DNA from: Chitinophagales bacterium
Lineage (GTDB): Bacteria > Bacteroidota > Bacteroidia > Chitinophagales > UBA2359
Assembly: GCA_020631035.1 (NCBI GenBank)
Contig: JAHDIA010000003.1
Coordinates: 1 to 40,518 of the forward strand
DNA: 40,518 nucleotides
Direction: 5' to 3'
Positions 1,019-38,304 of the stretch are shown here, one piece after another. The translations under genes were made by a program, and so were the position numbers. Under the pieces are notes generated by a model. It was not told the origin of the DNA, did not search any database, and worked only from the letters and a program-made list of their open reading frames with translations. Numbering within the stretch: position 1 is the stretch's first letter; each line of letters starts with the position of its first letter.

Positions 1019-1234
1019 AAGTCTTTGTGTGTTTTAATGATTGACTAAAATTGTATTTGCGTGAAAGAACAAAACCAAGCAAGGGTATTAAAGTCTTTAA
1101 TCCCTCACATTGGACAAAGAATATTAAACACAAAGCAGAAAATTTGTCAAGCAAAAAGTGGATTTTAGAGAGCATCAAAAAAGTAGGAACTGAAAGATTT
1201 TGTAATACAGGCAATCTTGAAAAATATATTAAAT

Positions 1235-1288
1235 ACAGCTTTTACTGTTTATACAGCAAATACAGTTTTTGCAGTAAAAGCATTATTA
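1235..1288 (+). repeat. 9-bp tandem repeat array, copy 1 (6 units)
   Basis: acagctttt actgtttat acagcaaat acagttttt gcagtaaaa gcattatta; no indels. Confidence 0.85.
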
Positions 1289-1330
1289 AAAGAGCCAATC
1301 TTTCTCGTTGAGATGCCTAATAAAACCTTT

Positions 1331-5800: not shown

Positions 5801-7132
5801 ACTTCTGGTGGTGCAGAAGTGCAACGACCTCTGGCAACGGTTGTGATTGGCGGATTGATAACAGCCACCTTTTTAACCTTAGTCGTACTCCCGATTTTAT
5901 ATAGCTGGCTGGCGAAATGGCAGGAGCGCAAGGGAGGACGGACAACAACTGCAAGTGCATCTCTAATCATTCTGCCTTTACTATTTTTCAGTCTGTCTGT
6001 CGAAGCACAACAACGACCCGTAACAATGGATGAAGCAGTAGAAATGGCTGTCCAAAATCACCCTGTCATTCGAGCAACAGATTTACAAATTCAGCAAAGT
6101 GAAAGTTTAAAAGACTTGCCTTACTCACTTGGAGATACAGAAATCAGCTATCAGGGTGATGGGCTATTTAGAGAAAACGGACAACGGGTTAATCAAATCG
6201 GAGTAGTACAAAACATTCCCAACCCTGCATCAGTCAAAGCACAAAATGTTTTGCAAAATGAAATTGTTAAACAAAGCTATTTGGGTAAGGAACTGACCAA
6301 AAGAGAATTGATTTTAGAGGTCAAGCAAACCTATCTCGATTTACAGCAACGTAAGGAATTACGGCAAATCTACAAACAATTGTTACAGACCTACGAACAG
6401 TATCTCCAAATGGCAACAGTACGGGTAGATATTGGTGCAGCTAATAATATTGAAAAACTGACTATTCAATCCGCTTTGAGTGAATATCGCTTATTGCTTA
6501 ATCAATCCATTTTGGAAATTGAAAATCTGGAAAAACAATTAGTCAATCTTTTAAATACAGACCAGTCCGTTACTTCAACAGACAGCTTGACAATGATGGC
6601 TTTTGAATCAAGGGATAGCCTGAACAATTTACAGATACAAATTGCCAGTCAGGATATTTTAATTGAACAGGCAAATATTGAACTATTGAAAACAGATTTA
6701 AAACCTGATTTTAATATTGGTTACTCAACCCAAAATTACTTTGAGGGCGGTTGGCTTCACGGTTTACAGGCAGGAATAGATATTCCTCTTTTTAAGAAGC
6801 AAAACAAACAAAAAGTGAAAGCTCAAAAATTACAAATTGAGGTAGCCCAAATCAAACTTGATGTAAAAAAACAAAGGCTCAACCAAGAGTTATTGGCAAT
6901 CGAAAATGTCATTTATTTGTACAATTCTGGTGTAAATCATTATCAGGAACAACTGGAAAATATCAATCCTGAAATCATACGAATATCCAAACTCAATTAT
7001 GAAGCTGGGGAAATCTCCTACCTCGAATTGCTGAATACCTTAAATATTTCTTCCAAAAATCAAATTAGTTATTTGGAGCAGGTGTTAGCATACAATAAAG
7101 CGGTAGTGCTTCACCAATTTTTTACAAACTAA
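2825..7132 (+). CDS. CusA/CzcA-family heavy-metal RND pump fused to a TolC-like domain
   Basis: 1435 aa; GAIDFGLIVDGAVIIVEA HME-RND motif; C-terminus RPVTMDEAVEMAVQNHPVIRATDLQIQQSES is TolC-like. Confidence 0.93.
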   Translation: MFDKIIAYSIENKFIIGLLTLALIVWGAFSLRQLPIDAVPDITNNQIQIITISPTLATLEVEQFITTPVELALQNIQQLVEIRSISRFGLSVVTVVFEEDMDVYLARQLVGEYLKEAEDDIPDGLGTPEMAPISTGLGEIYQYVIRPEKGYEDKYSPMELRSIQDWIVKRQLSGIEGVVEINTMGGFLKQYEVAVDPNLLKSVGISITDILTALENSNENTGGAYIEKNPNTYYIRTNGIARSLTDLENIVVDVRNGRPILVKDVATVQFGKAPRYGALVRDGEEAVGGRVMMLKGANSAAVTERVKERVKQIKKSLPEGVIIEPYLVRDKLVSTAIGTVKTNLLEGGLIVIFILVLMLGNWRAGLIVASVIPLSMLFAVSMMNMLGISANLMSLGAIDFGLIVDGAVIIVEAIVHRLQVNFAGQKLTIAQMNNEVKTAAQKIRSSAAFGEIIILMVYIPILALVGIEGKMFKPMAQTVMLAIGGALILSLTYIPMMSALFLNKKITNKKTIADRIIAFFQRLYTPVLNLALRFKAFFVLVTIILFTISLFVFSRMGGEFIPTLEEGDLAMQQILPAGTSLSQSVEIASIIQKKLLKDFPEIEDVVVNIGAAEIPTDPMPVEIGDYVLVMKPKSEWTSASSRKEMFEKIEKSLSVIPGVGYEFSQPIQLRFNELMTGSKADIAIKLYGEDLDLLYNKAKEAESIITKIGGVGTVNVEQTIGMPQIIINFKYDKMAQYGLQVKEVNQVVRSAFAGESAGVIYEGEKRFDLVVRLDEKYRNGIADVQNLYITLDNGAQVPLQTVANVELIDAPMQISRENTNRRIVIGANVGDTDVETLVSKIQKELDLKIEIPAGYYFTYGGQFENLQAANARLMVAVPIALALIFIMLYFTFGSISQALLIFTAIPLSAIGGIWALELRGMPFSISAGIGFIALFGVAVLNGIVLIGYFNQLKKEGVTNIRERIIKGTSVRLRPVLLTASVASLGFLPMALSTSGGAEVQRPLATVVIGGLITATFLTLVVLPILYSWLAKWQERKGGRTTTASASLIILPLLFFSLSVEAQQRPVTMDEAVEMAVQNHPVIRATDLQIQQSESLKDLPYSLGDTEISYQGDGLFRENGQRVNQIGVVQNIPNPASVKAQNVLQNEIVKQSYLGKELTKRELILEVKQTYLDLQQRKELRQIYKQLLQTYEQYLQMATVRVDIGAANNIEKLTIQSALSEYRLLLNQSILEIENLEKQLVNLLNTDQSVTSTDSLTMMAFESRDSLNNLQIQIASQDILIEQANIELLKTDLKPDFNIGYSTQNYFEGGWLHGLQAGIDIPLFKKQNKQKVKAQKLQIEVAQIKLDVKKQRLNQELLAIENVIYLYNSGVNHYQEQLENINPEIIRISKLNYEAGEISYLELLNTLNISSKNQISYLEQVLAYNKAVVLHQFFTN

Positions 7133-7146
7133 CAACCGATCATAAA

Positions 7147-8385
7147 ATGAAAAAGATCAAATCATATATCATCTTGTTTTTTAGTGTAGCACTAATTTCC
7201 ACCTTTCTTGCTTGTGGTCACAGTCACTCTGATGGACACAATCACAACCATTCACACGGAAATGAACAGCATAGTGAAGGCGATGGTCATGGACACGGAC
7301 ATGGCGAAGAACACGAAGAAGGAGAAATTCATCTAACTAAAGAGCAAATTGAAACCATGAAAATTCAGTTTGGCGATTTCTCCCAAGTTAAAATAAATGA
7401 CTTTGTTAAAGCAACAGGAACACTTGACTTACCACCTAATGCCTATGCTTCAGTAAGTGCAAGAGCAGATGGATTTATAAAAGGAAGTAAAAAATATGTA
7501 GATGGTAACTATATTAAGGAAGGGGCAATTATTGGTTATCTAGAAAATCCTGAATTTATTCAAAAACAACAAAACTACCTTGAAGTACAATCAGAGCTAG
7601 CTTTTTTAAATCAAGAATTAGCTCGACAGCAAAAATTGGTAACTGCGAATGCAGGAGTGGAAAAGAATCTGCAAAAATTGCAATCAGAAGTGAATGTAAA
7701 AACAGTTACACTAAAAGGTATAGCCAAACAATTAGCTTATCTCGGCTTCAATACTACTAATTTGACACCTGATAATATCACCGAACGCATTGTTATTATT
7801 TCGCCCGTGTCTGGTTATATTACATCTGTAAGTATGCACAATGGAATGTATGTTACACCACAAATAGAACTAATCGAAATAGTCAATGAAAACCATCTGC
7901 ATTTAGAATTAGACATATTTGAAAAAGACATTGCCATTATCAAAGAAGGTCAGAGAATAAGCTATAATGTTCCTGCAATGAGTAATGATGTTTATGAAGG
8001 AGAAGTTCATATTGTTGGTAAAGAATTCAATACCGAAAATAAAACCGTTCGTATTTACGGGCATTTAGGAAAAGAGCGTCCAAAATTTATTAAAGACCTT
8101 TTTGTTGAAGCTAAAATTTGGTTGAATGACCAAACTGTTCAGGCACTTCCAGAAAAAGTAATTATCAAAGATGGGACTTTCTCTTATATTTATGTTGCTA
8201 ATGACCAAGTTAATAATGATGAGTTGAAATTTGAGGCAATCAGAGTGCTAGAAGGTACAACTGATAATGGTTTTACTTCTGTAAAATTGATTGACACAAT
8301 ACCTGACGGGATGAAAATCGTGACTAAGGGAGCATATTATGTTTTTGCTCAATCGAAGGCTGGAGAGTTATCACATGAACATTAA
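7147..8385 (+). CDS. Efflux RND periplasmic adaptor subunit (CusB/CzcB type), His-rich lipoprotein-like N-terminus
   Basis: FLACGHSHSDGHNHNHSHG... followed by hairpin/lipoyl and beta-barrel adaptor features. Confidence 0.9.
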   Translation: MKKIKSYIILFFSVALISTFLACGHSHSDGHNHNHSHGNEQHSEGDGHGHGHGEEHEEGEIHLTKEQIETMKIQFGDFSQVKINDFVKATGTLDLPPNAYASVSARADGFIKGSKKYVDGNYIKEGAIIGYLENPEFIQKQQNYLEVQSELAFLNQELARQQKLVTANAGVEKNLQKLQSEVNVKTVTLKGIAKQLAYLGFNTTNLTPDNITERIVIISPVSGYITSVSMHNGMYVTPQIELIEIVNENHLHLELDIFEKDIAIIKEGQRISYNVPAMSNDVYEGEVHIVGKEFNTENKTVRIYGHLGKERPKFIKDLFVEAKIWLNDQTVQALPEKVIIKDGTFSYIYVANDQVNNDELKFEAIRVLEGTTDNGFTSVKLIDTIPDGMKIVTKGAYYVFAQSKAGELSHEH

Positions 8386-8400
8386 TAAACCTTTTTTACA

Positions 8401-8814
8401 ATGGAGAAAGCACATAAAATTTTAGAACAAAAAGCTGTCCGAATCACACCAATGCGACAGATTATATTGGAATACTTCTTACAAAACAATGGAACATTCG
8501 GTTTGATAGAATTAGAAAATACTTTTCCAAAATCTGATAGAATCACCATATATCGAACCCTTAAAACATTTGAGGAAAAAAGTATTTTACATGGGATCAA
8601 GAATGGAACAGGAGAAGTGAAATATGCGTTATGTGACGAACATTGCACACCAATTCACCATATTGACAAACATCCGCATTTCCAATGTGAACAATGCAAA
8701 AAGATAACCTGTATTAATAGTTTGGTCATTCCAGAAATGGAACTTCCTAAAGGTTATATTCAAAAAGAAATGACTATCCTGATAAAAGGTATATGCCCTG
8801 ATTGTCAGGAATAA
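8401..8814 (+). CDS. Fur-family transcriptional regulator
   Basis: RITPMRQIILEYFLQN...SDRITIYRTLKTFEEKSILHGI...HHIDKHPHFQCEQCKKITC...GICPDC. Confidence 0.9.
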   Translation: MEKAHKILEQKAVRITPMRQIILEYFLQNNGTFGLIELENTFPKSDRITIYRTLKTFEEKSILHGIKNGTGEVKYALCDEHCTPIHHIDKHPHFQCEQCKKITCINSLVIPEMELPKGYIQKEMTILIKGICPDCQE

Positions 8815-8864
8815 GTTTGCAATTTCATTGCATTGATAATCCCGTTAATTTTATAGAAAAAACA

Positions 8865-9461
8865 ATGAAAACAGGAGTCTATTTATTCTTTTTTTTACTG
8901 GTTTATTTCTTCTTTGTTTTTTTTCTAAGATCTTATCTGCTGTGGAAAAGAACAGGGATAAACCCTTTGACCTTCAATACATCAGATGATGCTCATAGCT
9001 ATAATGGGAAGGTGTTTGCCTTCATTTCCTTGTTGGAATTTGTAGTGGTACTCATTTATGCCTTTAAAAACGAATGGTATCAATACCTCTTGCCATTTTG
9101 GTATCTGGAACATGATTATTTGAAATATATCGGTTGGGGCTTATTAGTACTATCTCTCATTTTGGTTTGGGTGGCTCAATCTCAAATGGCAAATTCTTGG
9201 CGCGTTGGCATTGATGAGAATAACAAAACTGAACTCATAACAAATGGCTTGTTTTCCATTTCGAGAAATCCTGTTTTTCTAGGTATTATGATTGCCAATA
9301 TTGGTCTGTTTTTTATCATTCCGAATGCGTTTACTCTGCTTATCATTTCGCTTTCAACAACTAGTATCAATACACAAATAAGATTAGAGGAAGACTTTTT
9401 AAAGAGTAGCCACGGAGAAGTCTATCGAGACTATCTAAAACGTGTTAGACGGTGGCTATAA
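8865..9461 (+). CDS. Membrane isoprenylcysteine carboxyl methyltransferase-like protein
   Basis: Multi-TM; WRVGIDENNKTELITNGLFSISRNPVFLGIMI; ATG at 8865 is in frame and preferred over 8802. Confidence 0.75.
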   Translation: MKTGVYLFFFLLVYFFFVFFLRSYLLWKRTGINPLTFNTSDDAHSYNGKVFAFISLLEFVVVLIYAFKNEWYQYLLPFWYLEHDYLKYIGWGLLVLSLILVWVAQSQMANSWRVGIDENNKTELITNGLFSISRNPVFLGIMIANIGLFFIIPNAFTLLIISLSTTSINTQIRLEEDFLKSSHGEVYRDYLKRVRRWL

Positions 9462-9478
9462 TTTGTTAATTTTATAAA

Positions 9479-9907
9479 ATGAATTTTAAAGAATCAATAA
9501 TTGGCAGTTCAATTGCTTTTTTAATAGCCACCAGTTGTTGCTGGTTGCCTACACTTATCATAGGGCTTGGTAGTGCAAGTAGTCTTTTAGCCTTTGTGAA
9601 TGGCTTAGAGGAATTCAGCGGAATTTTTATGCTGTTGGGTATCATATTATTCTTATATGGTGGTTTTCAATTTTATAAAAAAAATGTAATGAAAAAATCA
9701 ACACAAGTAGAATTAGAATCTACTATTACTTGTCCTAATTGCGGATTTCAAAAGAAGGATACTATGCCCACTAATGCTTGCCAATTCTTTTATGAATGTG
9801 AAAGTTGTAAAACCTTATTAAAGCCCAAAGAGGGTGACTGTTGTGTTTATTGTAGCTATGGAACAATAGCTTGTCCACCTATTCAATTAAATCAAAATTG
9901 TTGCTAA
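9479..9907 (+). CDS. MerT-like membrane protein with C-terminal Cys-rich GDCCVYCSYGT domain
   Basis: SCCWLPTLIIGLGSASSLLAFV N-terminus; CPNCG...CESCKTLLKPKEGDCCVYCSYGTIACPPIQ C-terminus. Confidence 0.75.
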   Translation: MNFKESIIGSSIAFLIATSCCWLPTLIIGLGSASSLLAFVNGLEEFSGIFMLLGIILFLYGGFQFYKKNVMKKSTQVELESTITCPNCGFQKKDTMPTNACQFFYECESCKTLLKPKEGDCCVYCSYGTIACPPIQLNQNCC

Positions 9908-10272
9908 TGAGATTCCAAGCAAAAACGATTAGGACTTTTATTGGAGCTAAGAATTATGAAGAGTCCAGAAGGTTCTATCAGGAATTAGGATTCGAGGAAG
10001 TTGTACTTTCTCCAAAAATGTCTCTTTTCAAAGTCAATGAAAATCTGGGATTTTACCTTCAAAAATATTATGTTAAAAAATGGTGTGACAACTCAATGGT
10101 TTTTCTCGAAGTAGACAATGTAGATAAATGCTGGGAAACACTTGAGGGAAAAGGATTACAAGACAAATACAAGTATGTTCGATTTACACCGATAAAAGAA
10201 TTTGACTGGGGTAGGGAATTTTTTATGCATGATCCGTCTGGCATTTTGGACAGTTTGATGATTGAAAGATGA
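9907..10272 (+). CDS. VOC (glyoxalase/bleomycin-resistance) family protein
   Basis: AKTIRTFIGAKNYEESRRFYQELGFEEV...FMHDPSGILDSLMIE; TAATG overlap with the upstream CDS. Confidence 0.85.
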   Translation: MRFQAKTIRTFIGAKNYEESRRFYQELGFEEVVLSPKMSLFKVNENLGFYLQKYYVKKWCDNSMVFLEVDNVDKCWETLEGKGLQDKYKYVRFTPIKEFDWGREFFMHDPSGILDSLMIER

Positions 10273-12299
10273 AAGAAAAAAACCACATACACATCTACGA
10301 TAAAAACGGCAATATAATCTGCTGTTCATTAGAAGAAAAAATAGATGCAAAAACGCCTCCGCCGATTGCAAAAGAAAAAGACCAACATCACGAAGATGAC
10401 GGACACAATCATTCGCACGACCACAGCCATGAAGGAGGTTTGGGGTGGAAAGCCTATCTATCTGCCCTGATTAGTTTGGTCTTATTGCTTTCAGGATTAG
10501 CAGTTGAGCATTTACAGGAAGCCTCCTTTTTTAAAGGTTGGATAAAAATTGTTTGGTACACATTGGCTTACATTCCCGTAGGTTTTCCAGTTATCAAAGA
10601 AGCATGGGAAGCCCTGCATAAAGGTGAAGTATTTACCGAGTTTTTCCTGATGTCTATTGCCACTATTGGCGCATTTGCCATTGGAGAATACCCCGAAGGT
10701 GTGGCGGTGATGTTGTTCTATGCCATTGGAGAATTATTCCAAACGATTGCGGTCAAAAGAGTCAAAAACAACATCAAAGCCTTATTGGATGTCCGACCCA
10801 ATACTGCTACTGTTTTGCGAAATGGAAACTACGGAACTGTTGACCCCGAAATGGTAGAAATCGGTGAAACTATACAGGTAAAAGTCGGTGAGAAAATTCC
10901 ATTAGATGGTATTCTCCTTTCGGAAAAAGCTGCCCTCAACACCGCAGCCCTTACAGGTGAAAGTAAACCACAAAACGCTTTACGGGGCGAAAAAGTAATG
11001 GCTGGTTCTATTAATCTGGATGGGGTTATTGAACTGAAAGTAGAGAAATTATTTCATGATAGTTCCATTGCTCGTATTCTTGATTTAGTTCAAAATGCCA
11101 CTTCTCGCAAATCCAAGACAGAACTACTCATCAGGCGATTGGCAAAAATATATACACCGATTGTTGTCTATTTGGCGATTGCTATTTGTGTTTTACCCTA
11201 CTTTTTTATTTCCGATTATGTTTTTACAGATTGGCTGTATAGAGCTTTAATTTTCTTGGTTATCTCTTGTCCGTGTGCCTTAGTCATTTCTATTCCATTG
11301 GGTTATTTCGGTGGTTTGGGAGCAGCTTCCAGAAAGGGATTATTATTTAAAGGAGCAACCTATCTTGACCAACTGACCAAAGTAAATACATTGGTCATCG
11401 ACAAAACGGGAACTGTCACTAAAGGCGTTTTTAAAATCAAAGATATAGTTGTCAAAGGGGATTACAGCGAAACAGAATTTATGAACCTCCTGATGGCAAT
11501 AGAAGCTAAATCCACTCACCCAATTGCCAAAGCCATTTTGGAGTATAATACAGAAAGTAACCTCCCCGAAGCTACCAACATTCAGGAAATTGCAGGAAAA
11601 GGGTTAAAGGGTGAAGTAGCTGGTAAAACAATGACAGTAGGCAATAAGAAGCTGATGGAGCAATTTAATATTCTTGTTCCCTCCGAAACGGACAGCATTG
11701 TAGAGACCATTGTCGTGGTTGGAATTGATGGCTCATTTGCAGGATATGTGACCATTGCCGATGAACTAAAAGCAGATGCCAAAGACAGTATTCAACAACT
11801 CCGCAAAGCAGGTATTAAAACCTTAATGATGCTGTCGGGTGACAAAAATTCTATCACCCAAAAAGTAGCTGATGAATTAGGGATTGAAAATGCCAAAGGA
11901 GGCTTACTTCCTGAAGATAAACTAAACGAAGTCAAAAAGATAAAACAAGATCCCACCAAAATTGTTGCCTTTGTTGGCGATGGCATCAATGATGCACCCG
12001 TACTGGCTGCAAGTGATGTCGCCATTGCAATGGGTGGTTTAGGAAGTGATGTTGCTATTGAAACGGCAGATGTGGTTATTCAAACTGACCAACCTTCCAA
12101 AATTGCCACAGGTATCAAAATTGGAAAATCCACTCAACGTATAATTTGGCAAAATATCGCCTTGGCTTTTGGGGTAAAAATCATTGTGCTTATTCTTGGT
12201 ACAGGGGGCTTAGCTACCATGTGGGAAGCCGTTTTTGCGGATGTAGGGGTGGCTTTGTTGGCTATCTTGAATGCGGTGAGGTTGCAACGGATGTTTTAG
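10269..12299 (+). CDS. Heavy-metal translocating P-type ATPase (Zn/Cd/Co type)
   Basis: SCPCALVISIP, VIDKTGTVTKG, GDGINDAPVLA; N-terminal His-rich tract; ATGA overlap with upstream CDS. Confidence 0.93.
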   Translation: MKEKNHIHIYDKNGNIICCSLEEKIDAKTPPPIAKEKDQHHEDDGHNHSHDHSHEGGLGWKAYLSALISLVLLLSGLAVEHLQEASFFKGWIKIVWYTLAYIPVGFPVIKEAWEALHKGEVFTEFFLMSIATIGAFAIGEYPEGVAVMLFYAIGELFQTIAVKRVKNNIKALLDVRPNTATVLRNGNYGTVDPEMVEIGETIQVKVGEKIPLDGILLSEKAALNTAALTGESKPQNALRGEKVMAGSINLDGVIELKVEKLFHDSSIARILDLVQNATSRKSKTELLIRRLAKIYTPIVVYLAIAICVLPYFFISDYVFTDWLYRALIFLVISCPCALVISIPLGYFGGLGAASRKGLLFKGATYLDQLTKVNTLVIDKTGTVTKGVFKIKDIVVKGDYSETEFMNLLMAIEAKSTHPIAKAILEYNTESNLPEATNIQEIAGKGLKGEVAGKTMTVGNKKLMEQFNILVPSETDSIVETIVVVGIDGSFAGYVTIADELKADAKDSIQQLRKAGIKTLMMLSGDKNSITQKVADELGIENAKGGLLPEDKLNEVKKIKQDPTKIVAFVGDGINDAPVLAASDVAIAMGGLGSDVAIETADVVIQTDQPSKIATGIKIGKSTQRIIWQNIALAFGVKIIVLILGTGGLATMWEAVFADVGVALLAILNAVRLQRMF

Positions 12300-13088: not shown

Positions 13089-13299
13089 ACCCTGTTTGTT
13101 TAGCTAGAAATTCAATTGGTAAGATACACGAAGTTAGACAATAAAACTCAAACTTACAAAACACATTGTATTATTTTCGATGTGTCCAGTTTTCGCACAT
13201 ATCCTGAAAGTACCTTGTTTTAATTTTTCAGGAGACTTAACCAAACCTTCATTTCAGAAGCTGAATTAAACTTTTTTTGCATTTATTCAGTTTAATAAA

Positions 13300-14262: not shown

Positions 14263-14387
14263 AGTACAAAGTAATTTCCAAGAACATCATTCAACCTTCT
14301 TAAACAAAAGGATAAAAAGTCCCACATTTTAACACTTTCTTATTTACTGCCAAAACCAAAAGATCCATATAAATTCAATCATCACAA

Positions 14388-14418
14388 AAAACCGCCTGAA
14401 CTCCATCAGAACGGTTTT
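14388..14418. terminator. Bidirectional intrinsic terminator
   Basis: AAAACCGcCTGAactccaTCAGaaCGGTTTT between convergent genes. Confidence 0.7.
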
Positions 14419-14434
14419 ACTCCCCTACTCTACC

Positions 14435-14869
14435 TCATTCCAACAATTCGGGGATCAACTCTTTTGTCAAATCCCAAAAATTTGGGGTTTCAGTCAGAGT
14501 AATATTTTGAGCATTGACCCTGCGGACAAACTGCTGATAGGCTTCTATGCTGTAATTCTCTGCCAATGCCAACAGATTCCAGTAAACAGGATGAACATAT
14601 TGCTCTTTTTCTACCCACTCACTAGGAATATTGGAATAGGCTGTAATTTTCCAACTAGGATTCACAGCACCAGAAAACAGATCAGGGTATTGCTTTTGCC
14701 ACCAGTCGAGTTGAAGATGAATTTTGATGTAGAGCTTATCTTGATTGAGTAGTGAGCCAAGTTCAACTTGGGCATTATCAGTAAATGATGGGATTGCTGC
14801 TTGAAAGGTGATGTTTGCTTTCATCAAGTCCGCACCATTAAAGGCTAGTGTTTTAATACCAATAGACAT
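14435..14869 (-). CDS. Hypothetical protein
   Basis: 144-aa ORF with downstream terminator. Confidence 0.6.
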   Translation of the reverse strand: MSIGIKTLAFNGADLMKANITFQAAIPSFTDNAQVELGSLLNQDKLYIKIHLQLDWWQKQYPDLFSGAVNPSWKITAYSNIPSEWVEKEQYVHPVYWNLLALAENYSIEAYQQFVRRVNAQNITLTETPNFWDLTKELIPELLE

Positions 14870-15073
14870 TTCAATAAAATTTTATTTCTCTATTGATACT
14901 TGGTTTTGTTATCTAGTCAAATAATAACTATAAGAATACTAGAACATAACTTTTTAGCCAATCCTACCCCATAAGACAACTCAATATAGTACAATTAGGA
15001 TTTAATATTAAAAAAATCCAAATAAAATATTAATTTTATATATTAGTTTTATTTTTTATAAAAATTTCGATCC

Positions 15074-25161: not shown

Positions 25162-25563
25162 TTGAAAATGGGTTAAGAAATAAAACCAATTATTGGACTG
25201 ACTGAAACTGCCGACTTGTCAAGAATTTTTTTGTCTGCTCCCCTACTCTATTTTTTCAAAAATTTTCTTTACAAGGAAAAGGCTTTTTCAGTAATGGGTT
25301 TACAGTTTTATTCGCAAGCCATTTTCAAATTGCTTACATCAAGTAATCAAACATCTGATGTTGGCAGATGATGTGATAAGACAGGTTGGTAATGCTCAAT
25401 ACTTAAATGAAGAAGATGCTGGACTAATGCCAACTGATATGATCTGGAACAGGTCAGGTGTTTGGTATGCTTGTGTGTTTTTCAGAGTGGGAGCAGCTTT
25501 TCAGACCACAAAAGACGAACTTGCTTTGAGCCTTCAATATTTATTCAATCAAAAAACAACCAT

Positions 25564-25788
25564 ACAGCAAAAGCTATATTTACTGTACAAAATGTAAAAA
25601 CAGCAAATAATGTATAAGCAGTTTTAACAGAAAAAGCTACAAAAAATGTAAAAACTATATTTACAGTAAATGCTAACTTTGTATTAAAAACATTATTTGC
25701 TGTAAAAGTAATAAATAATATATATACAGCTATTGCATTAAAAACAGTTTTTGCTATATTTGCTGTAAATAATGTAAAAACAGCTTAT
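25564..25788 (+). repeat. 9-bp tandem repeat array, copy 2 (25 units), directly upstream of parA
   Basis: acagcaaaa gctatattt actgtacaa aatgtaaaa acagcaaat ... gctgtaaat aatgtaaaa acagcttat; no indels. Confidence 0.9.
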
Positions 25789-26461
25789 GGCAGCAAAAGT
25801 AATATCTGTGGCAAACATCAAGGGGGGAGTTTCCAAGACTTCTACTGGAATCTTTTTAGCTACGGCATTAGCCCACGATGACAGAAAAGTATTGTACTTG
25901 GATTGTGACAGTCAAGAAAGTGCAACCGAGTTTAGGACATTTGAAAAACAAACTGATTATGCCGAGACCCCCGAACCTTACAGAATCAGAAAGACAGACC
26001 CAACATTTTTATACGACTTGATTGAGGATATGAAAGCCAATCACGATGTAATATTTGTTGATCTTCCCCGACTGACGCACGGCAAAGAGGACAAAACCAT
26101 TGCAATGATCTTGGCTTTATGTGATTACATCTTGATTCCCATTAAGTCGGGTGAACTCGACAATATGAGTACAGCACGATTTGTTGAGATCATCAAAAAG
26201 ATTGCAGACCACAAAAAAGAGAGGGGGATTGATTACCTCTACGCTGGATTTGGCAGTATGACAGGCAAGCGACCCAGCGATGACAAGGCAGCAAAGGAAT
26301 TTATGGAGACATTGGAAATTCCAATCTTGGAAAATGATATGAAGGACTTAAAAGAGTTCTCACGTTCCTATACCTTTGAGAGCTTGTTAAATATAGGGAA
26401 AGCAGAAAAACAACGCTTTGAACCCTTTTACAAAGAAGTAGTAACCTTTTTTAATCTTTAA
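25787..26461 (+). CDS. parA: ParA-family partition ATPase
   Basis: VISVANIKGGVSKTSTGIFLATAL deviant Walker A; VLYLDCDSQESAT. Confidence 0.93.
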   Translation: MAAKVISVANIKGGVSKTSTGIFLATALAHDDRKVLYLDCDSQESATEFRTFEKQTDYAETPEPYRIRKTDPTFLYDLIEDMKANHDVIFVDLPRLTHGKEDKTIAMILALCDYILIPIKSGELDNMSTARFVEIIKKIADHKKERGIDYLYAGFGSMTGKRPSDDKAAKEFMETLEIPILENDMKDLKEFSRSYTFESLLNIGKAEKQRFEPFYKEVVTFFNL

Positions 26462-26465
26462 CAAT

Positions 26466-26732
26466 ATGGCAAAACAAAGAACACGCTTTACAGGCAATAA
26501 ATTAGATAAAAAGGAGGCAGAAGCCTTAGCAGAAGATATACTCGGCACAGAAAAAGAGCCTTCAAAAGAGAAGCCAAAGAAAACCAAGAAAAAACAGGCA
26601 GAGACAGCAAAAAGCAAAAAGAAGTTTCTGTATGTGAGTGAGGAAATACACAAGATGGCAAAACAAAAGGCGATTATGAATGATTTTAAAACGCTTCAAT
26701 CATACATCGAACACTTGATAGAAAAAGGCTGA
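26466..26732 (+). CDS. Small RHH-like protein, putative centromere-binding partner of ParA
   Basis: Lys-rich N-terminus plus KKKFLYVSEEIHKMAKQKAIMNDFKTLQSYIEHLIEKG; 4 bp after parA. Confidence 0.7.
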   Translation: MAKQRTRFTGNKLDKKEAEALAEDILGTEKEPSKEKPKKTKKKQAETAKSKKKFLYVSEEIHKMAKQKAIMNDFKTLQSYIEHLIEKG

Positions 26733-26733
26733 T

Positions 26734-26805
26734 ACAGTTTTTACAGCATATACTATATTTACAGTAAAAACAGCAAATACATTTTTTACAGTATTTACAG
26801 CAAAG
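26734..26805 (+). repeat. 9-bp tandem repeat array, copy 3 (8 units), directly after the parA operon
   Basis: acagttttt acagcatat actatattt acagtaaaa acagcaaat acatttttt acagtattt acagcaaag. Confidence 0.92.
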
Positions 26806-28797: not shown

Positions 28798-28867
28798 ACA
28801 TATTTAATATTACATATTAAGTATTAAGGTGCTTAAAAGCCTTATAAATAAAGGGTTTTGCCTTCTC

Positions 28868-29090
28868 TAAGGCGAGTAAATGTTACTCTAAGGCGAGTAA
28901 ATGTTACTTTAAGGCGAGTAAATGTTACTCTAAGGCGAGTAAATGTTACTCTAAGGCGAGTAAATGTTACCATTAAGGCGAGTAAATGTTACTAAGGCGA
29001 GTAAATGTTACCATTAAGGCGAGTAAATGTTACCACGTTTTTTAATGAAAAAAATAATTAAGGCGAGTAAATATTACCATTAAGGCGAGT
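28868..29090 (+). repeat. Iteron array type I upstream of repB (9 full copies plus 1 partial)
   Basis: TAAGGCGAGTAAATGTTAC at 28868, 28889, 28910, 28931, 28952, 28974, 28993, 29015, 29059 (variant ATATTAC), partial at 29081. Confidence 0.95.
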
Positions 29091-29127
29091 TGAAAAATTG
29101 ACATACTCTCCTTATTTTTGTAGTATT

Positions 29128-30540
29128 ATGATAGATTATAGCAAAATGACAAAAGAGGAGAGGCAGTTGGTAACAGTCCATTTGGCAAATAAAGTTATAG
29201 AAGGTTCAAGGCATATTAATATTTTGTCAGAGTTGTTTCTGTATTTTGTGATGGGAGAAATAGATTCAGATGCACGTTATCCATATCGCATTGTTACAAC
29301 TCGAAAAAAGTATGCTAAATTTCGAGGTCTGCCCAATGGTAAATTTAAATTTATTCGAAAACAGATAGATAGGATAATTGAGGATTTAAACGCAAATCCG
29401 CTTAAAGCCTATGACGATGAAGCAGAGGAATATGATGTACTTAATTGGGTTACTTCGATAAATTTGAGGAAAGATAAAATATATGTAAACTTAACACCAG
29501 AGGTAGGAGCGTTTCTGCTCTATAAAAAAGGGCAATCATTTACAAAGGTTTTACAAGATATAAGTGGATTTAAGAGTACAGGAACAGTTGCTATTAAAGA
29601 GATGATAGAAATTGACTTGTATAATAAATGGAAAAAATTAAAAATAGACCCTGAAAAAAAATTACCATACATAGATAAAGAAATTAGTGATATAAAATTT
29701 AAAGCGGGTATAGAAAGTAGTTATAAAAATTTAAGTGACTTTAAACGTTTTTTCTTGGATAGAGCTTGTAATGAGCTAAAAGACTTAAACTTTCCTATTC
29801 AATTTGAATATGATATGCTTAGTGAAGATGGGGAAATTTTAGAAACTGGGCGTAGAGGAGCAACACAAGTACGGTTTTACATTATAGATAAGCGAGAGGA
29901 AATGTTAGAAAAATGGGAGACAGATAAAGAACAACAAACAACTGTTGATGAAGTAATAGACGCAGCCAAACAAGAACACCAACAAAACTATAAAAAACAG
30001 TATCAATATTTAACAGGGTGGGGGATAGGTGAAGAAAAAGTTTATGACTTGATTGAAGAAAAAGGCATTGAAAAAATCCAACAAGCAATAGATGTGGTTC
30101 AAAGTACCCCAAATGTGAAAAATCCATCAGGCTTATTCTTAAAAGCATTACAGGGAGACTGGCAGACAGCACAACAAAAAGACCAAGAGAAAAAGCGGGA
30201 AGCTCGACAAAAAAACAAGGCACGAGTTGAGGCAGAAAAGCAAAAAGAAGCAGCAGAGAAGGCACGAAAAAGAGCTTATTATGAAGAACGCAAAGCCATT
30301 TGTGACAAATTGCTCACAGAGGAAAAAGGCTTAGAGTATTTTTATGAAAAAGCCAAAAACTATATAACAAGAACATTTTTACATTTCCATTTAGATAAAA
30401 CACCAGAACAAGTTTATCACAATGGGGGTATGACACTTGCTCAAATGATTTATGCCATAGAACAAGAATACCCTCAAAGTTTTGAGGAACTTCACGCCAA
30501 GTGTCCTGATTTAGTGGTACACTTTGAATTGGTGGAGTGA
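29128..30540 (+). CDS. repB: RepB-family (Rep_3-like) replication initiator
   Basis: KVIEGSRHINILSELFLYFVMGEIDSDARYPYRIVTTRKKYAKFRG...; iterons on both sides; ATG at 29128. Confidence 0.85.
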   Translation: MIDYSKMTKEERQLVTVHLANKVIEGSRHINILSELFLYFVMGEIDSDARYPYRIVTTRKKYAKFRGLPNGKFKFIRKQIDRIIEDLNANPLKAYDDEAEEYDVLNWVTSINLRKDKIYVNLTPEVGAFLLYKKGQSFTKVLQDISGFKSTGTVAIKEMIEIDLYNKWKKLKIDPEKKLPYIDKEISDIKFKAGIESSYKNLSDFKRFFLDRACNELKDLNFPIQFEYDMLSEDGEILETGRRGATQVRFYIIDKREEMLEKWETDKEQQTTVDEVIDAAKQEHQQNYKKQYQYLTGWGIGEEKVYDLIEEKGIEKIQQAIDVVQSTPNVKNPSGLFLKALQGDWQTAQQKDQEKKREARQKNKARVEAEKQKEAAEKARKRAYYEERKAICDKLLTEEKGLEYFYEKAKNYITRTFLHFHLDKTPEQVYHNGGMTLAQMIYAIEQEYPQSFEELHAKCPDLVVHFELVE

Positions 30541-30757: not shown

Positions 30758-30859
30758 GTTGGGCAAAGTATGTGCTTTGCATCGTGAATTGATGTTGGTT
30801 CTGATAAAGGGTAGGGAATAGGTTTTTTTAAGGCATAGTGCGAGAAAGATGATCTCCTT

Positions 30860-30922
30860 TGATATAGTATTTGCTGTAAAAACTGTTTTTACTGTATAAA
30901 CATTAAATGCTGTAAATAATGT
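30860..30922 (-). repeat. 9-bp tandem repeat array, copy 4 (7 units, inverted orientation)
   Basis: tgatatagt atttgctgt aaaaactgt ttttactgt ataaacatt aaatgctgt aaataatgt. Confidence 0.85.
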
Positions 30923-30940
30923 ATTTTTCAGAATCAAAAA

Positions 30941-31177
30941 CTATAAAGATAAAAGCTCTTTGATTTCTTCTGTTTTATAAAGTAGCAAGCTATCTATTTG
31001 ATACAAAATTTCTAGGGTGTAATTGTCTAGCTCTTTTTGCCAATCAGGGCGATTGGGTGTTTCAGATACTCTTTCTGATTCTTGGTTGATTTTTTGCTCC
31101 AATGATAGTTTGAGTTCGTGCAAAAAATCAAGGGTTTGATGGGCTGGATTGTTGGCAGAGTGGGGGAGTGGGTACAT
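30941..31177 (-). CDS. Hypothetical small helical protein
   Basis: 78-aa ORF, coherent composition. Confidence 0.5.
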   Translation of the reverse strand: MYPLPHSANNPAHQTLDFLHELKLSLEQKINQESERVSETPNRPDWQKELDNYTLEILYQIDSLLLYKTEEIKELLSL

Positions 31178-32164: not shown

Positions 32165-35107
32165 ATGACAAGTTACGACAAGCTAATAAACATACTCCGT
32201 GAAGTATTCCAGATAGATCAAGCCGATTTAGATTTTGGGATTTACAAGATAATGAACCAAAGACGAGAGCAGATTAATCAGTTCTTGGAAAATGATTTAT
32301 TGACCCAAGTGGAAAGCATTTTGGCAGATGCTGTGGGTATTGATACCAGTGCCATAAAAGAGCAGTTGGATAAAGTGATTAGTGGTTTGAAAGCTGCTGA
32401 CTTTACCAAGACTGAAATAGAATTGAATCAAAAAGTCATTGGACTGAAAAAGGAATTGGCACAAGCTGGCGATAATACCATACTTCAAAATGATGTGTTT
32501 TCACATCTGACCAATTTCTTCAAACGCTATTACCACAAGGGCGATTTTATCTCGATGCGTCGGTATAAAAAAGATGTCTATGCCATTCCTTATGAGGGGG
32601 AGGAAGTAAAACTGCATTGGGCAAATCACGATCAGTATTACATCAAAACTGCGGAATACCTAAAGAATTACAGCTTTATGTTGCCACAGGGTAAAAAGGT
32701 GGTGTTTGAACTCAAAGAAGCCTCTACTGAAAAAGACAATAACAAGGCACAAAATGGCAAGGAGCGAAAGTTTAAAGTTTTTGAGGATCAGCCGTTGGAA
32801 GTGATAAGTGATAAAGTTCTAAAGATATACTTTACTTACAAAACAGAGAGCAAAGGAGAAAAGCAAGATGACCTAAACCAACAAGGCTTTGAAGCCATTA
32901 AAAGCCAACTCACCAAAGATTGGTTTGATGTACTGCAAGCCAAGCCAACTGAAAAGAAGAAAGACAGAACCTTGCTAGAAAAGCACATCAATGATTTTAC
33001 GGCTCGCAATAGTTTTGATTATTTCATTCATAAAGACTTGGGCGGTTTTTTGAATAGGGAATTGGATTTTTACATTAAAAATGAAGTCTTACACATTGAC
33101 GATATTGACCACGAAAAGCCTGACCAATTTGTAAAGCAGTTGAGTAAGGTAAAAGCCATCAAAGCCATTGCCCGAAAGCTCATTACCTTCTTGGCACAGA
33201 TAGAGGACTTTCAGAAAAAAATGTGGTTAAAAAAGAAGTTTGTAGTAGAAAGCAATTATTGCTTGACCCTTGACCACATTCCAGAAAGTTTTTACCCTGA
33301 AATAGTGGAGAATACCCGCCAATGGGACGAATGGGAAGAGCTGTTTGCCATTTCTGAAATAAAAGGGGAAAAGATAGAGATACTTAAAGCACAACCTTAT
33401 TTGGTGCTAGATACCAAATTATTTAGTGAAGATTTTAAGTTGCGACTATTAGCGGAAATTGAAGATATAGACGGCAAGGTGAATGGCTTGCTTGTTAATT
33501 CAGAGAATTTTCAAGCGTTGCAACTGCTTCAAGGAAAATATAACAATGAGGTGAAATGTATTTATTTAGATCCACCATATAATACAGGTAAAGACGGATT
33601 TAATTATAAGGATAATTTCCAACATAGTAGCTGGATTACGATGGCATTTGAAAGAATAAGTTTGGGAAAGTCTTTAATGAGCAAGAACGCTGGAATAGCA
33701 ATCAGTATTGATGATAATGAATTAAACCGACTTAGTTTTTTACTTAACAATGCGTTCGGAGAACATAATAAAATTGCAAATGTTATTTGGAAAAAAAGAT
33801 CAGGACCTCCAAATGATAAAAAAATAGGTACTGTTCAAGAATATATACCTGTATTTGCTAAAGATATATTAGAGATAGATTTACAGAATAAAACAAGAAG
33901 TGAAGAACAATTAAAAAGATATAAAAATCCAGATAATCACCCCAAAGGCAGGTGGGCTTCAGATAATTTGATGGCTAATGTTAAAGGTGGTAGGTATGTA
34001 GAATCACTTAATTTTCCAATTGAGAATCCAAATACAGGAGAGTCTCATTATCCTGGCAAAAATGGGAATTGGCGATTTAATAAAGAGAAGATAGAAAGGC
34101 TTTTGGAAAATAATGAGATTTATTTTGGTGCAGATGGTAAAGGAAGACCAAAACTAAAAAGGTTTTTATGTGATGTAAAAGAAGGTGTGCCTTTTTCTTC
34201 TTTGTGGGATTATTTACCCTATAATAATTCAGCATCTAAAAGTTTAGAAAGTATGTTTGGTGACATTAATATATTTGATACCCCCAAACCAGTTGAACTT
34301 ATAGAGGAAGTGATTAATTTAATTAATGGCAAAAAAAGTATAATATTAGATTATTTTGCAGGTTCAGCAACAACAGGACACGCTGTTATTAATCTAAACA
34401 AAAGTGATGGTGGAGATAGAAGGTATATACTTGTTGAGATGGGCGAGTATTTTAATTTAGTCACTAAACCCCGAATCCTCAAAGTCATTCATTCTCCCGA
34501 CTGGAAAGACGGCAAGCCCACCAATCGAGAAGGGGGCAGCTCACACATCATTAAAACTTTGCGCCTTGAAAGCTATGAGGACACCCTCAATAACTTAATT
34601 CTCCAAGACCATTTAACAGAGTATGCTGATTTGTTCAGCGATGCCAAGAACAAAGAAAGTTATATGCTCAACTATATGTTGGAAATGGAAAGCCGAGATA
34701 TGCTCTCCATTGAAGACTTTGAAAAGCCCTTTGATTACCAATTGACCATTACTGAAAATAATGAGCCAAAACCTACAAAGGTAGATATGGTTGAAACCTT
34801 TAATTACTTGATGGGCTTTAGCATCAAAACCCAAAAGCACACAGAAGAAGGCTACCGAGTATTGACCGCACAAAATAGGGCAGGGGAGAATGTGCTTATT
34901 ATTTGGCGTGATTTTGAAAAGCACAGCAACGAAGATTTACACAACTTTTTCATAGCCAACGGCTGGCACGAAAACCCATCATTCAAGCACGTTTATACCA
35001 ATGGGCGCACCACCTTATTGACCATCCGAAAAGAAACCGACAACTGGCAACTTCATCAGATAGAGCTTGAATTTCGCCAACGTATGTTTGATGTACAAGA
35101 CGTATGA
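32165..35107 (+). CDS. Type III restriction-modification methyltransferase (Mod), beta-class adenine MTase, with long N-terminal region
   Basis: LLVNSENFQALQLLQGKYNNEVKCIYLDPPYNTGKDGFNY (motif IV) then LDYFAGSATTGHAV (motif I). Confidence 0.9.
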   Translation: MTSYDKLINILREVFQIDQADLDFGIYKIMNQRREQINQFLENDLLTQVESILADAVGIDTSAIKEQLDKVISGLKAADFTKTEIELNQKVIGLKKELAQAGDNTILQNDVFSHLTNFFKRYYHKGDFISMRRYKKDVYAIPYEGEEVKLHWANHDQYYIKTAEYLKNYSFMLPQGKKVVFELKEASTEKDNNKAQNGKERKFKVFEDQPLEVISDKVLKIYFTYKTESKGEKQDDLNQQGFEAIKSQLTKDWFDVLQAKPTEKKKDRTLLEKHINDFTARNSFDYFIHKDLGGFLNRELDFYIKNEVLHIDDIDHEKPDQFVKQLSKVKAIKAIARKLITFLAQIEDFQKKMWLKKKFVVESNYCLTLDHIPESFYPEIVENTRQWDEWEELFAISEIKGEKIEILKAQPYLVLDTKLFSEDFKLRLLAEIEDIDGKVNGLLVNSENFQALQLLQGKYNNEVKCIYLDPPYNTGKDGFNYKDNFQHSSWITMAFERISLGKSLMSKNAGIAISIDDNELNRLSFLLNNAFGEHNKIANVIWKKRSGPPNDKKIGTVQEYIPVFAKDILEIDLQNKTRSEEQLKRYKNPDNHPKGRWASDNLMANVKGGRYVESLNFPIENPNTGESHYPGKNGNWRFNKEKIERLLENNEIYFGADGKGRPKLKRFLCDVKEGVPFSSLWDYLPYNNSASKSLESMFGDINIFDTPKPVELIEEVINLINGKKSIILDYFAGSATTGHAVINLNKSDGGDRRYILVEMGEYFNLVTKPRILKVIHSPDWKDGKPTNREGGSSHIIKTLRLESYEDTLNNLILQDHLTEYADLFSDAKNKESYMLNYMLEMESRDMLSIEDFEKPFDYQLTITENNEPKPTKVDMVETFNYLMGFSIKTQKHTEEGYRVLTAQNRAGENVLIIWRDFEKHSNEDLHNFFIANGWHENPSFKHVYTNGRTTLLTIRKETDNWQLHQIELEFRQRMFDVQDV

Positions 35108-38100
35108 ATCCCCTAGAAAAGAAAACAGTAATGGCAAAAAAGAAACAAGCAATAAGATTAAACGATGCGTTGGTACTGAACCGCTACCTATTACAACAGT
35201 TTGGCTTTGATGATTTGGAAACATTGAGCAGCAGTCTCAAAGAATCCAATTTGGAGCAGTACAGCGAAAATAATGAAAGCTACTTTTTTAAAGAACTGGA
35301 AAAGGTTTTGCCCGACTATGCCCCTTTGTCTGGTCAGCTTCAAAGCTATGATGAAAACATCATCAGTCATACCCTTGCCATTTCAGCCAATAGAGACGAA
35401 ACGATAAAGTGGAAATACTTTCAATATTTGAGCTTGCTATTTACAGAAGTCTATTTAGACCAATATTTTAAAGACAAAAAAGCACTACTCAAAAACATAA
35501 ATACCTTCATTGCAGAGTTTAATGATCCACTCAATGACAAGGTGAAAAATGAGACAGGAGCAGTTGTTGAACCTTACACAGAAAGTGAACTCAATACCCT
35601 TGCTTTTTGGAATGCCACAGGATCAGGCAAGACCCTTTTAATGCACATCAACATCAAGCAATTTCAGCATTATGCAGAAAAGTACGAAGCCGATGAGATC
35701 AATAAAATATTACTGGTTACACCCAATGAAGGTTTGTCGAATCAGCATTTAGAGGAATTTACCTTGTCGGGCATTGAAGCAGAGATATTCAGCAAAAAAA
35801 GCAGCGATGCCTTTTCAGGAAAGAATGTTGAGATCATTGAGATAAGCAAACTAGCCGAAACAAGCGGAGAAAAAACAGTAGCCGTTGAAGCCTTTGAAAC
35901 CAATAATTTAGTATTGATTGACGAAGGACACAGAGGAGTAGCAGGGGAGCAATGGAAAAGTCGGAGAGATACATTGAGTCTCAACGGATTTGCCTTTGAG
36001 TATTCCGCCACATTTGGACAAGCGGTGAGTGCAGCCAATGGAAAAGTCAAAAAAAGCCTTATTCAAGAATATGCCAAAACCATACTCTTTGATTACTCAT
36101 ACAAATACTTTTACAATGATGGTTATGGCAAAGACTTCTCCATACTGAACATACCAGAAGCCAATGAAGGGGAGTTTTTACAAAAGTATATGACAGGGGC
36201 ATTGTTGAGCTTTTACCAACAAAAAATAGTATTTGCCGAAAACGAAAAACAAGCCCAGCTCTTCCAGATAGAAAACCCATTGTGGGTGTTTGTCGGTTCG
36301 AGTGTCAATGCTGTTCGTACCGAAAAAAAACAAGCCAAATCAGATGTCATTGCCATCATCAGCTTCTTTTCAACTTTCATCAAAGATGAAGCAACAAGCA
36401 TCAAACACATAAGACAAATATTGGAAGGCGAGGACGGCATCATCAATGAGTATGGACAATCTATATTCCGCTATTCCTTTGACTACATCAGGCAAAAAGG
36501 CATAACCGCTGATGTCATTTACAAAGACATTTTACAAAGCGTATTCAATACCAATGTATCAGGCGCAAATGTATATTTAGACAATCTCAAAGGCGTTGAC
36601 GGAGAATTGGGGCTTAGAGTGGGAGATGGTGAATATTTTGGTGTCATCAATGTAGGTGATGAAAAGAAGCTGCACAAGCTATGTATGGCAAATAATGTAG
36701 AAGGGGGAGACAAAGAATTTGCCGTTTCATTATTTGATGAAATAAACAAGCCACATTCAAGCGTAAACGTTTTGATTGGTTCAAAGAAATTCACAGAAGG
36801 TTGGAGTTCTTGGCGAGTAAGCACAATGGGCTTAATGAATGTCGGACGAGGGCAAGGTTCACAGATCATACAATTATTTGGTCGTGGTGTACGATTGAAA
36901 GGGTATCAAAAGAGCCTCAAACGAAGCCGAGACTTAGACCGCCACCAGCAGCCCAAGAGTAAAATACCCAACTATCTACCCACTTTGGAAACCCTTAATA
37001 TATTTGGTATTCGTGCCGACTATATGATGAATTTCAAAGAGTATTTGAAAGAAGAAGGCTTGCCCACCGACTCAATGGAAGAAGTGAGCATACCAGTAAT
37101 GCCTACCATCAAACTAGACAATATCAGACTAAAGAAGATAGGCACAAAAGAAGGTGTGTCATTTGAAGCCGACAACCGCATACACTTGGTGATGGAAAAG
37201 AACCTATGCAAAGAAAGCACGGCTGTATTAGACTGGTATCCCAAAGTTCAATCTGTGCGCTCCAATGATGTAGCAGAGCAAGTGATTACCTATAAAAATA
37301 CCCGCAACTATTTACCCACATTTGTTGCTTTATTCCTTGATTGGAATGCACTATACAAAGAACTGTCTAAATTCACATCAGAGCGCAATTGGGAGAGCCT
37401 ACACTTTGACAACAATGACTTAAAAAAGATCCTTCAAACAAAAGGCTGGTTTACCCTTTACATTCCAGACACCGATGCCAATGCCAATGTACCCCAAAAA
37501 GGCGTATGGCAACAGATCGCAACGGCACTACTCAAACAATACTGTGAACGCTTTTACAACTACAAAAAGAACGAGTATTTATCCAAACATTTAGAGCTAC
37601 AAATCCTCACCCCTGATGATGAGAATTTTGAGGAAGAATACAGAATCTTAATCAAGGAGTCAGAGCAGAAAATCATTGAGAATTTACACAAGCTCAAAGC
37701 CGATATAGAAGCAGGCAGATTCACAGAAGATTTTAAAATTGATGGCAACAATTTCAAAGCCATTCACTACCTCAATCATTTGTACAATCCATTGTTGTAC
37801 CTCAATGGTAAGCAGTACCAAGACTTTGTGAAGATCACACCAGTTGCCCTTAATGATGGGGAGAACCGATTTATCAGCGATCTCAAAAAGTTTCACGAAA
37901 AACGTCCAGACTATTTTGATGGAAAAGAGTTGTATTTATTACGCAACAAGAGCAGAAGCGGAATAGGCTTTTTTCAAGCAAGCAATTTTTACCCCGACTT
38001 TATTTTGTGGGTAGTTGAGGGCGACCATCAGCACATCGTATTTTTAGACCCAAAAGGCTTGTTGAACATCACGGGCATCAATCACCCAAAGCTGCGGTTT

Positions 38101-38304
38101 CACCAGACCATCAAAACCGACATTGAGCCACAACTCAAAGACCCCAATATCAACCTTCATTCCTTCATCATATCCGTTACGCCACACAGCCGTTTAAAGC
38201 ATTGGCAGGGAGGAGAGACCATTGCAGACTTCAATGCTTGTGGTGTGTATTTTCAGGAGGATCAGGCGAGTAGTTATGTTGTGGAGATTTTGGAGGGGTT
38301 GTAG
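35104..38304 (+). CDS. Type III restriction enzyme Res subunit (DEAD helicase plus PD-(D/E)XK-like C-terminus)
   Basis: FWNATGSGKTLLMHINI, LIDEGHRG, FEYSATFGQ, QIIQLFGRGVRLKG; C-terminal FYPDFILWVVEGDHQHIVFLDPKG; ATGA overlap with Mod. Confidence 0.92.
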   Translation: MNPLEKKTVMAKKKQAIRLNDALVLNRYLLQQFGFDDLETLSSSLKESNLEQYSENNESYFFKELEKVLPDYAPLSGQLQSYDENIISHTLAISANRDETIKWKYFQYLSLLFTEVYLDQYFKDKKALLKNINTFIAEFNDPLNDKVKNETGAVVEPYTESELNTLAFWNATGSGKTLLMHINIKQFQHYAEKYEADEINKILLVTPNEGLSNQHLEEFTLSGIEAEIFSKKSSDAFSGKNVEIIEISKLAETSGEKTVAVEAFETNNLVLIDEGHRGVAGEQWKSRRDTLSLNGFAFEYSATFGQAVSAANGKVKKSLIQEYAKTILFDYSYKYFYNDGYGKDFSILNIPEANEGEFLQKYMTGALLSFYQQKIVFAENEKQAQLFQIENPLWVFVGSSVNAVRTEKKQAKSDVIAIISFFSTFIKDEATSIKHIRQILEGEDGIINEYGQSIFRYSFDYIRQKGITADVIYKDILQSVFNTNVSGANVYLDNLKGVDGELGLRVGDGEYFGVINVGDEKKLHKLCMANNVEGGDKEFAVSLFDEINKPHSSVNVLIGSKKFTEGWSSWRVSTMGLMNVGRGQGSQIIQLFGRGVRLKGYQKSLKRSRDLDRHQQPKSKIPNYLPTLETLNIFGIRADYMMNFKEYLKEEGLPTDSMEEVSIPVMPTIKLDNIRLKKIGTKEGVSFEADNRIHLVMEKNLCKESTAVLDWYPKVQSVRSNDVAEQVITYKNTRNYLPTFVALFLDWNALYKELSKFTSERNWESLHFDNNDLKKILQTKGWFTLYIPDTDANANVPQKGVWQQIATALLKQYCERFYNYKKNEYLSKHLELQILTPDDENFEEEYRILIKESEQKIIENLHKLKADIEAGRFTEDFKIDGNNFKAIHYLNHLYNPLLYLNGKQYQDFVKITPVALNDGENRFISDLKKFHEKRPDYFDGKELYLLRNKSRSGIGFFQASNFYPDFILWVVEGDHQHIVFLDPKGLLNITGINHPKLRFHQTIKTDIEPQLKDPNINLHSFIISVTPHSRLKHWQGGETIADFNACGVYFQEDQASSYVVEILEGL

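Follow-up and report, generated by a model that had tools for sequence, protein, structure and literature searches.

Arrays of a near-palindromic 9-bp unit on both sides of a parA-parB pair as the probable partition site of a Chitinophagales plasmid-like contig

The window analysed here, that is, the whole 40,518-nt contig JAHDIA010000003.1 of a Chitinophagales bacterium, carries a pair of small genes on the forward strand that resembles a plasmid partition operon. The first, parA (25787..26461, + strand), encodes a 224-aa ParA/MinD-type Walker ATPase (Pfam AAA_31, 1e-18; CbiA, 3e-12) whose ATPase domain begins at residue 3, with no N-terminal HTH. Its Walker A motif reads KGGVSKT instead of the usual KGGVGKT, and the NCBIfam ParA_partition profile matches it at 2e-23, yet below the curated cut-off. 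A parB-like gene encoding 88 aa (26466..26732, + strand) lies 4 nt 3' of parA, and its TGA stop codon occupies 26730-26732.

Directly 3' of this stop codon lies an array of eight 9-bp units without assigned strand, delimited at 26732..26804 with 70.7 bits by a cyclic nine-state HMM trained on the window. The eight units listed in an earlier note, made by a model that had only the sequence, are present letter for letter. That note had the array begin 1 nt after the stop codon, which holds in its own register; in the palindromic register, 1 nt earlier, the first unit starts at 26733 and abuts the stop. All eight units are distinct and no two adjacent ones are alike, with A as the central base in seven and T in one.

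A longer array of 25 units precedes parA and reaches into its start codon (25562..25789, no assigned strand, 165 bits). Here, 23 of the 25 units are distinct, adjacent units are never identical, and the central base is A in 12 and T in 13. The earlier description of an operon bracketed by two arrays is correct as to both, but the HMM finds four arrays in the window, two of which had been missed. Array 1 (1222..1292, no assigned strand, ~8 units, 59.5 bits, with dense pattern matches) lies ~200 bp upstream of ardA (446-1018, − strand, named from its translation), and array 4 (30862..30926, no assigned strand, seven units, 59.3 bits) lies between the converging ends of rep and an ORF at 30941-31177. 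Each array in the window thus has at least seven units. The same HMM found no array in three dinucleotide-level shuffles, and when bases were shuffled within the arrays, the observed periodicity was reached in 0 of 20,000 shuffles and the core match in 0 of 4,000, which places the arrays far beyond chance. A search of the 6-Mb assembly with a three-unit pattern gave dense matches on the window contig only, and there was no Rfam match. ORFs called across arrays 1 and 4 are not taken to be genes, since a 9-bp period by itself leaves reading frames open. These two arrays (1222-1320 versus 30820-30926) can also be aligned unit by unit in opposite orientation, with a common short flank (ATCTTTCTCG...ATGCC) that, taken alone, is not beyond chance.

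The unit can be written as TRCWGYA+WW, with the core RCWGY, and is close to its own reverse complement: the position matrix correlates with its reverse complement about the fourth base at r = 0.95, and all non-equivalent centres give at most 0.29. Unit orientation therefore has little meaning and is not a feature of the system. For this reason, the proposal that both arrays flank the operon in the same orientation fails, the upstream array holding both central-base forms of the unit in nearly equal number.

The surroundings are those of a plasmid. Eight 21-bp tandem repeats (28865..29033, + strand, tandem repeat finder), which are unrelated to the 9-bp unit and are probably replication iterons, precede rep (29098..30540, + strand), which encodes a replication initiator of the Rep3 winged-helix type (Pfam Rep3_C, 1.6e-5). 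Genes for MobC, a relaxase, a coupling protein and ArdC are also present, and the combination of an iteron-type rep with MobC/relaxase and coupling-protein genes makes the contig look like a mobilisable plasmid. A 277-bp part of a radC-like gene occurs at both contig ends (1-277 and 40242-40518), with ~94% identity between the two; as the ends are homologous and not an exact circular overlap, they do not establish circularity. Elsewhere in the window, a stretch at 1340-1425 (AACCCACAGCGAGGAACGAGC...GATAGCCCGACC) matches dozens of plasmids of the Bacteroides group, largely in regions without annotation, as well as other contigs of the source genome. Judged from translations only, positions 2825-12299 hold heavy-metal efflux genes (a CzcA/CusA-like protein fused to an outer-membrane factor, an adaptor protein, a P-type ATPase and a Fur-like regulator), and the genes for 980 and 1066 aa at 32165-38304 resemble a type III restriction-modification pair.

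In ~1,840 genome searches, in which some genomes were repeated, only two relatives with the exact layout were found. In G001, a contig of the same genus (JAHDGP010000019.1), ParA and ParB are 39% and 44% identical to those of the window, and 9-bp arrays at 13190-13263, 14286-14668, 14726-14776 and 14992-15027 lie upstream of parA, over ~380 bp from the parB stop onwards, and again before rep. In G757, from another family of the same order, the identities are 44% for ParA and 34% for ParB, and arrays lie upstream of parA, overlapping the end of parB, and at rep, on a replicon with 49% G+C. An array begins at the parB stop in all three replicons, and this fixed position, together with that before parA, in such diverged replicons ties the arrays to parAB. 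In the re-estimated motifs, the palindrome is centred on the same base (r = 0.95 in the window, 0.94 in G001 and 0.82 in G757), each model of a relative having been initialised from the motif of the previous replicon. With random starts, EM favoured a period of 9 over 7, 8, 10 and 11 in all three, although for G757 the gain, taken by itself, does not exceed the parameter penalty. No relative turned up when viral contigs were scanned with ParA; of two such scans of genome contigs, the first found none and the second recovered the G001 contig. Searching 100 relatives with the three-unit pattern at two mismatches gave scattered matches of no use for finding arrays.

Bacteroidota promoters have a -7 box with the consensus TAnnTTTG. 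By consensus match only, such a promoter (TTG-N19-TATATTTG) is predicted at 25733..25762 on the + strand, 24 nt 5' of the parA ATG. Because its -7 box and the TTG 19 bp upstream of that box both fall within the array, ParB bound there would be expected to repress transcription. In each of the three replicons, the array before parA contains or adjoins a -7 box, 15 nt from parA in G001 and 34 nt in G757. The upstream array is probably both operator and centromere.

The 88-aa protein has no significant family or solved-structure match by sequence in Pfam, NCBIfam or the PDB. It does not match Pfam Omega_Repress either, for which a Spirosoma relative alone gives a sub-threshold match (E 0.02). It has a basic N-terminus (MAK(K/Q)R), a linker and a C-terminal predicted ribbon-helix-helix (RHH) domain. 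The structure model of the window protein has a single long helix (59-87), and that of G001 ParB has an extended stretch, a helix (77-89), a turn and a helix (94-106), which is the RHH order. In a fold search of the PDB with the G001 model, 16 of the 18 matches listed are RHH proteins or likely so (3ft7), including Arc, AtaR, KacA, ParG, MatP, CopG and CdbA, with two chains of StnY taken as one protein and typed by an RHH-sized fold match only; one listed match is an unrelated dehydrogenase. All these matches are weak (E-values 2-10), and only their agreement counts. Given the 44% identity, both the window and the G001 ParB are probably RHH proteins. All three replicons share the MAK(K/Q)R N-terminus, and K3 is common to the six proteins aligned. 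This agrees with what is known of RHH-ParBs, whose N-terminal tails act on ParA (PMC9499535).

Taken together, the arrays most probably constitute the DNA site of a type-Ib-like ParA/RHH-ParB partition locus, serving at once as its centromere and as its autoregulatory operator. The earlier note had proposed such a double role; conservation of layout and motif, the RHH topology of the relative's ParB model and the promoter boxes all support it, while its argument from orientation does not. In the mechanism that we propose, each dimer of the 88-aa ParB would bind one near-palindromic unit, and adjacent dimers would stack cooperatively along contiguous units. ParB spread over the 25-unit array, which holds the putative parA promoter, would repress parA-parB, and ParB on all arrays, including the one at the parB stop, would form the partition complex. 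Its N-terminal tails would then recruit nucleoid-bound ParA and stimulate its ATPase, so that sister plasmids would be pulled apart. Membership in type Ib would depend on the putative RHH fold and on the predicted binding of ParB to the arrays.

The arrays might instead be operators without any role in segregation, through which a small RHH protein would repress several plasmid promoters. RHH proteins are often repressors, array 1 lies upstream of ardA, and the promoter box recurs in or at the upstream array in every replicon. We nevertheless consider this improbable, because the downstream array and array 4, between converging gene ends, have no annotated promoter to control, which favours a role in segregation, and because the ~380 bp array after parB in G001 is far above what repression should need. 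It is less probable still that a different protein, such as the Rep initiator or a host nucleoid protein, binds the arrays and that they lie close to parAB by chance. Arrays do occur near rep as well in all three replicons, and 9-bp repeats of a similar kind stand upstream of repM on a small Acinetobacter johnsonii plasmid for which no parA is annotated, but Rep has its own 21-bp repeats of another sequence, and the constant placement of one array before parA and another from the parB stop, shared by three diverged replicons, links the arrays to parAB. That the arrays are a neutral tandem repeat produced by slippage is hardly credible despite their AT-richness and short period, since nearly all units are distinct while core and symmetry are kept, adjacent units are never identical, a pattern that favours selection on the core over recent slippage, and the same layout recurs in two other replicons, one of them with 49% G+C.

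Among known systems, partition by the arrays together with ParA and the probable RHH ParB is best read as working like the delta (ParA)/omega (RHH ParB)/parS system of plasmid pSM19035, with 9-bp units and a bracketing layout. This type Ib system likewise combines a small ParA and a small RHH ParB with contiguous short units that occur at several plasmid sites, overlap promoters and vary in orientation (PMC9499535). Its arrays hold 7-10 units and act as centromere and operator alike, and ParA is activated only by four or more contiguous units (PMC9499535). The pSM19035 units, in contrast, are 7 bp long and non-palindromic (WATCACW), whereas those of the window are 9 bp long and near-palindromic around RCWGY, with period 9 favoured over 7. 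The par genes of pSM19035 are transcribed separately, unlike the bracketed parA-parB pair of the window with its array from the parB stop, and the 88-aa protein has no sequence match to omega. The centromere of pCXC100, also of type Ib, consists of short tandem repeats of similar length and offers a lead. It is made up solely of direct repeats (PMC5016525), although pCXC100 is an actinobacterial plasmid. The type II parC of R1 ParMRC is similar in its RHH binding protein and in having its direct repeats in two blocks that flank the par promoter (PMC5016525), but its motor is the actin-like ParM and not a ParA-type Walker ATPase, and both its blocks lie upstream, around the promoter, whereas the window arrays lie around the operon. 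In the StbA/stbDRs system of R388, 9-bp repeats lie at several plasmid promoters and are needed for stability; they are spaced 2 bp apart and have another sequence (TTGCATCAT), and the motor-like StbB is dispensable for stability (PMC3098194).

Searches of a library of open-access papers returned no described centromere for Bacteroidota plasmids. If the proposed reading is true, a phylum for which genetic tools are scarce would gain defined parS sites that can be tested. The 7-bp spacing of omega would also be joined by one of 9 bp, which would set stacked dimers at a different twist and so inform the question of whether ParA activation depends on the geometry of the array.

Further loci were selected by ParA similarity. 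With random starts, EM preferred a period of 8 in the DNA 5' of parA in Tunicatimonas, Rufibacter, two Hymenobacter plasmids and G803 (arrays 5' of parA at L010:3690-3997, L139:1700-2497, L140:2090-2480, L141:1940-2440 and L137:2056-2330). In these loci, the protein encoded after ParA is longer (~134-165 aa), and the units are strongly symmetrical in Rufibacter and in one of the Hymenobacter plasmids, less so in the rest. Plasmids of Spirosoma, Fibrella, Aureispira and Chondrinema with a related ParA showed no 8- or 9-bp array above shuffles; that of Aureispira has a repeat with a period of 21 bp, nearer rep. An 8-bp signal in locus L053 was discarded because it lies inside coding sequence. 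Generalizing from these few cases, there is about an even chance that Bacteroidota plasmids have in common a hitherto undescribed class of partition system. Its centromere would consist of long arrays of contiguous short units, most of them near-palindromic, unit length (8 or 9 bp) would track the type of small ParB-like protein, and the 9-bp branch would bracket the operon with an array from the parB stop.

As a separate observation, the A. johnsonii plasmid pAJ4132, which is without an annotated parA, carries some ten TACAGTAAA/TACAGCAAA units (L132:7379-7465) that lie between repM and repeats resembling iterons, in a region annotated as a hypothetical protein.
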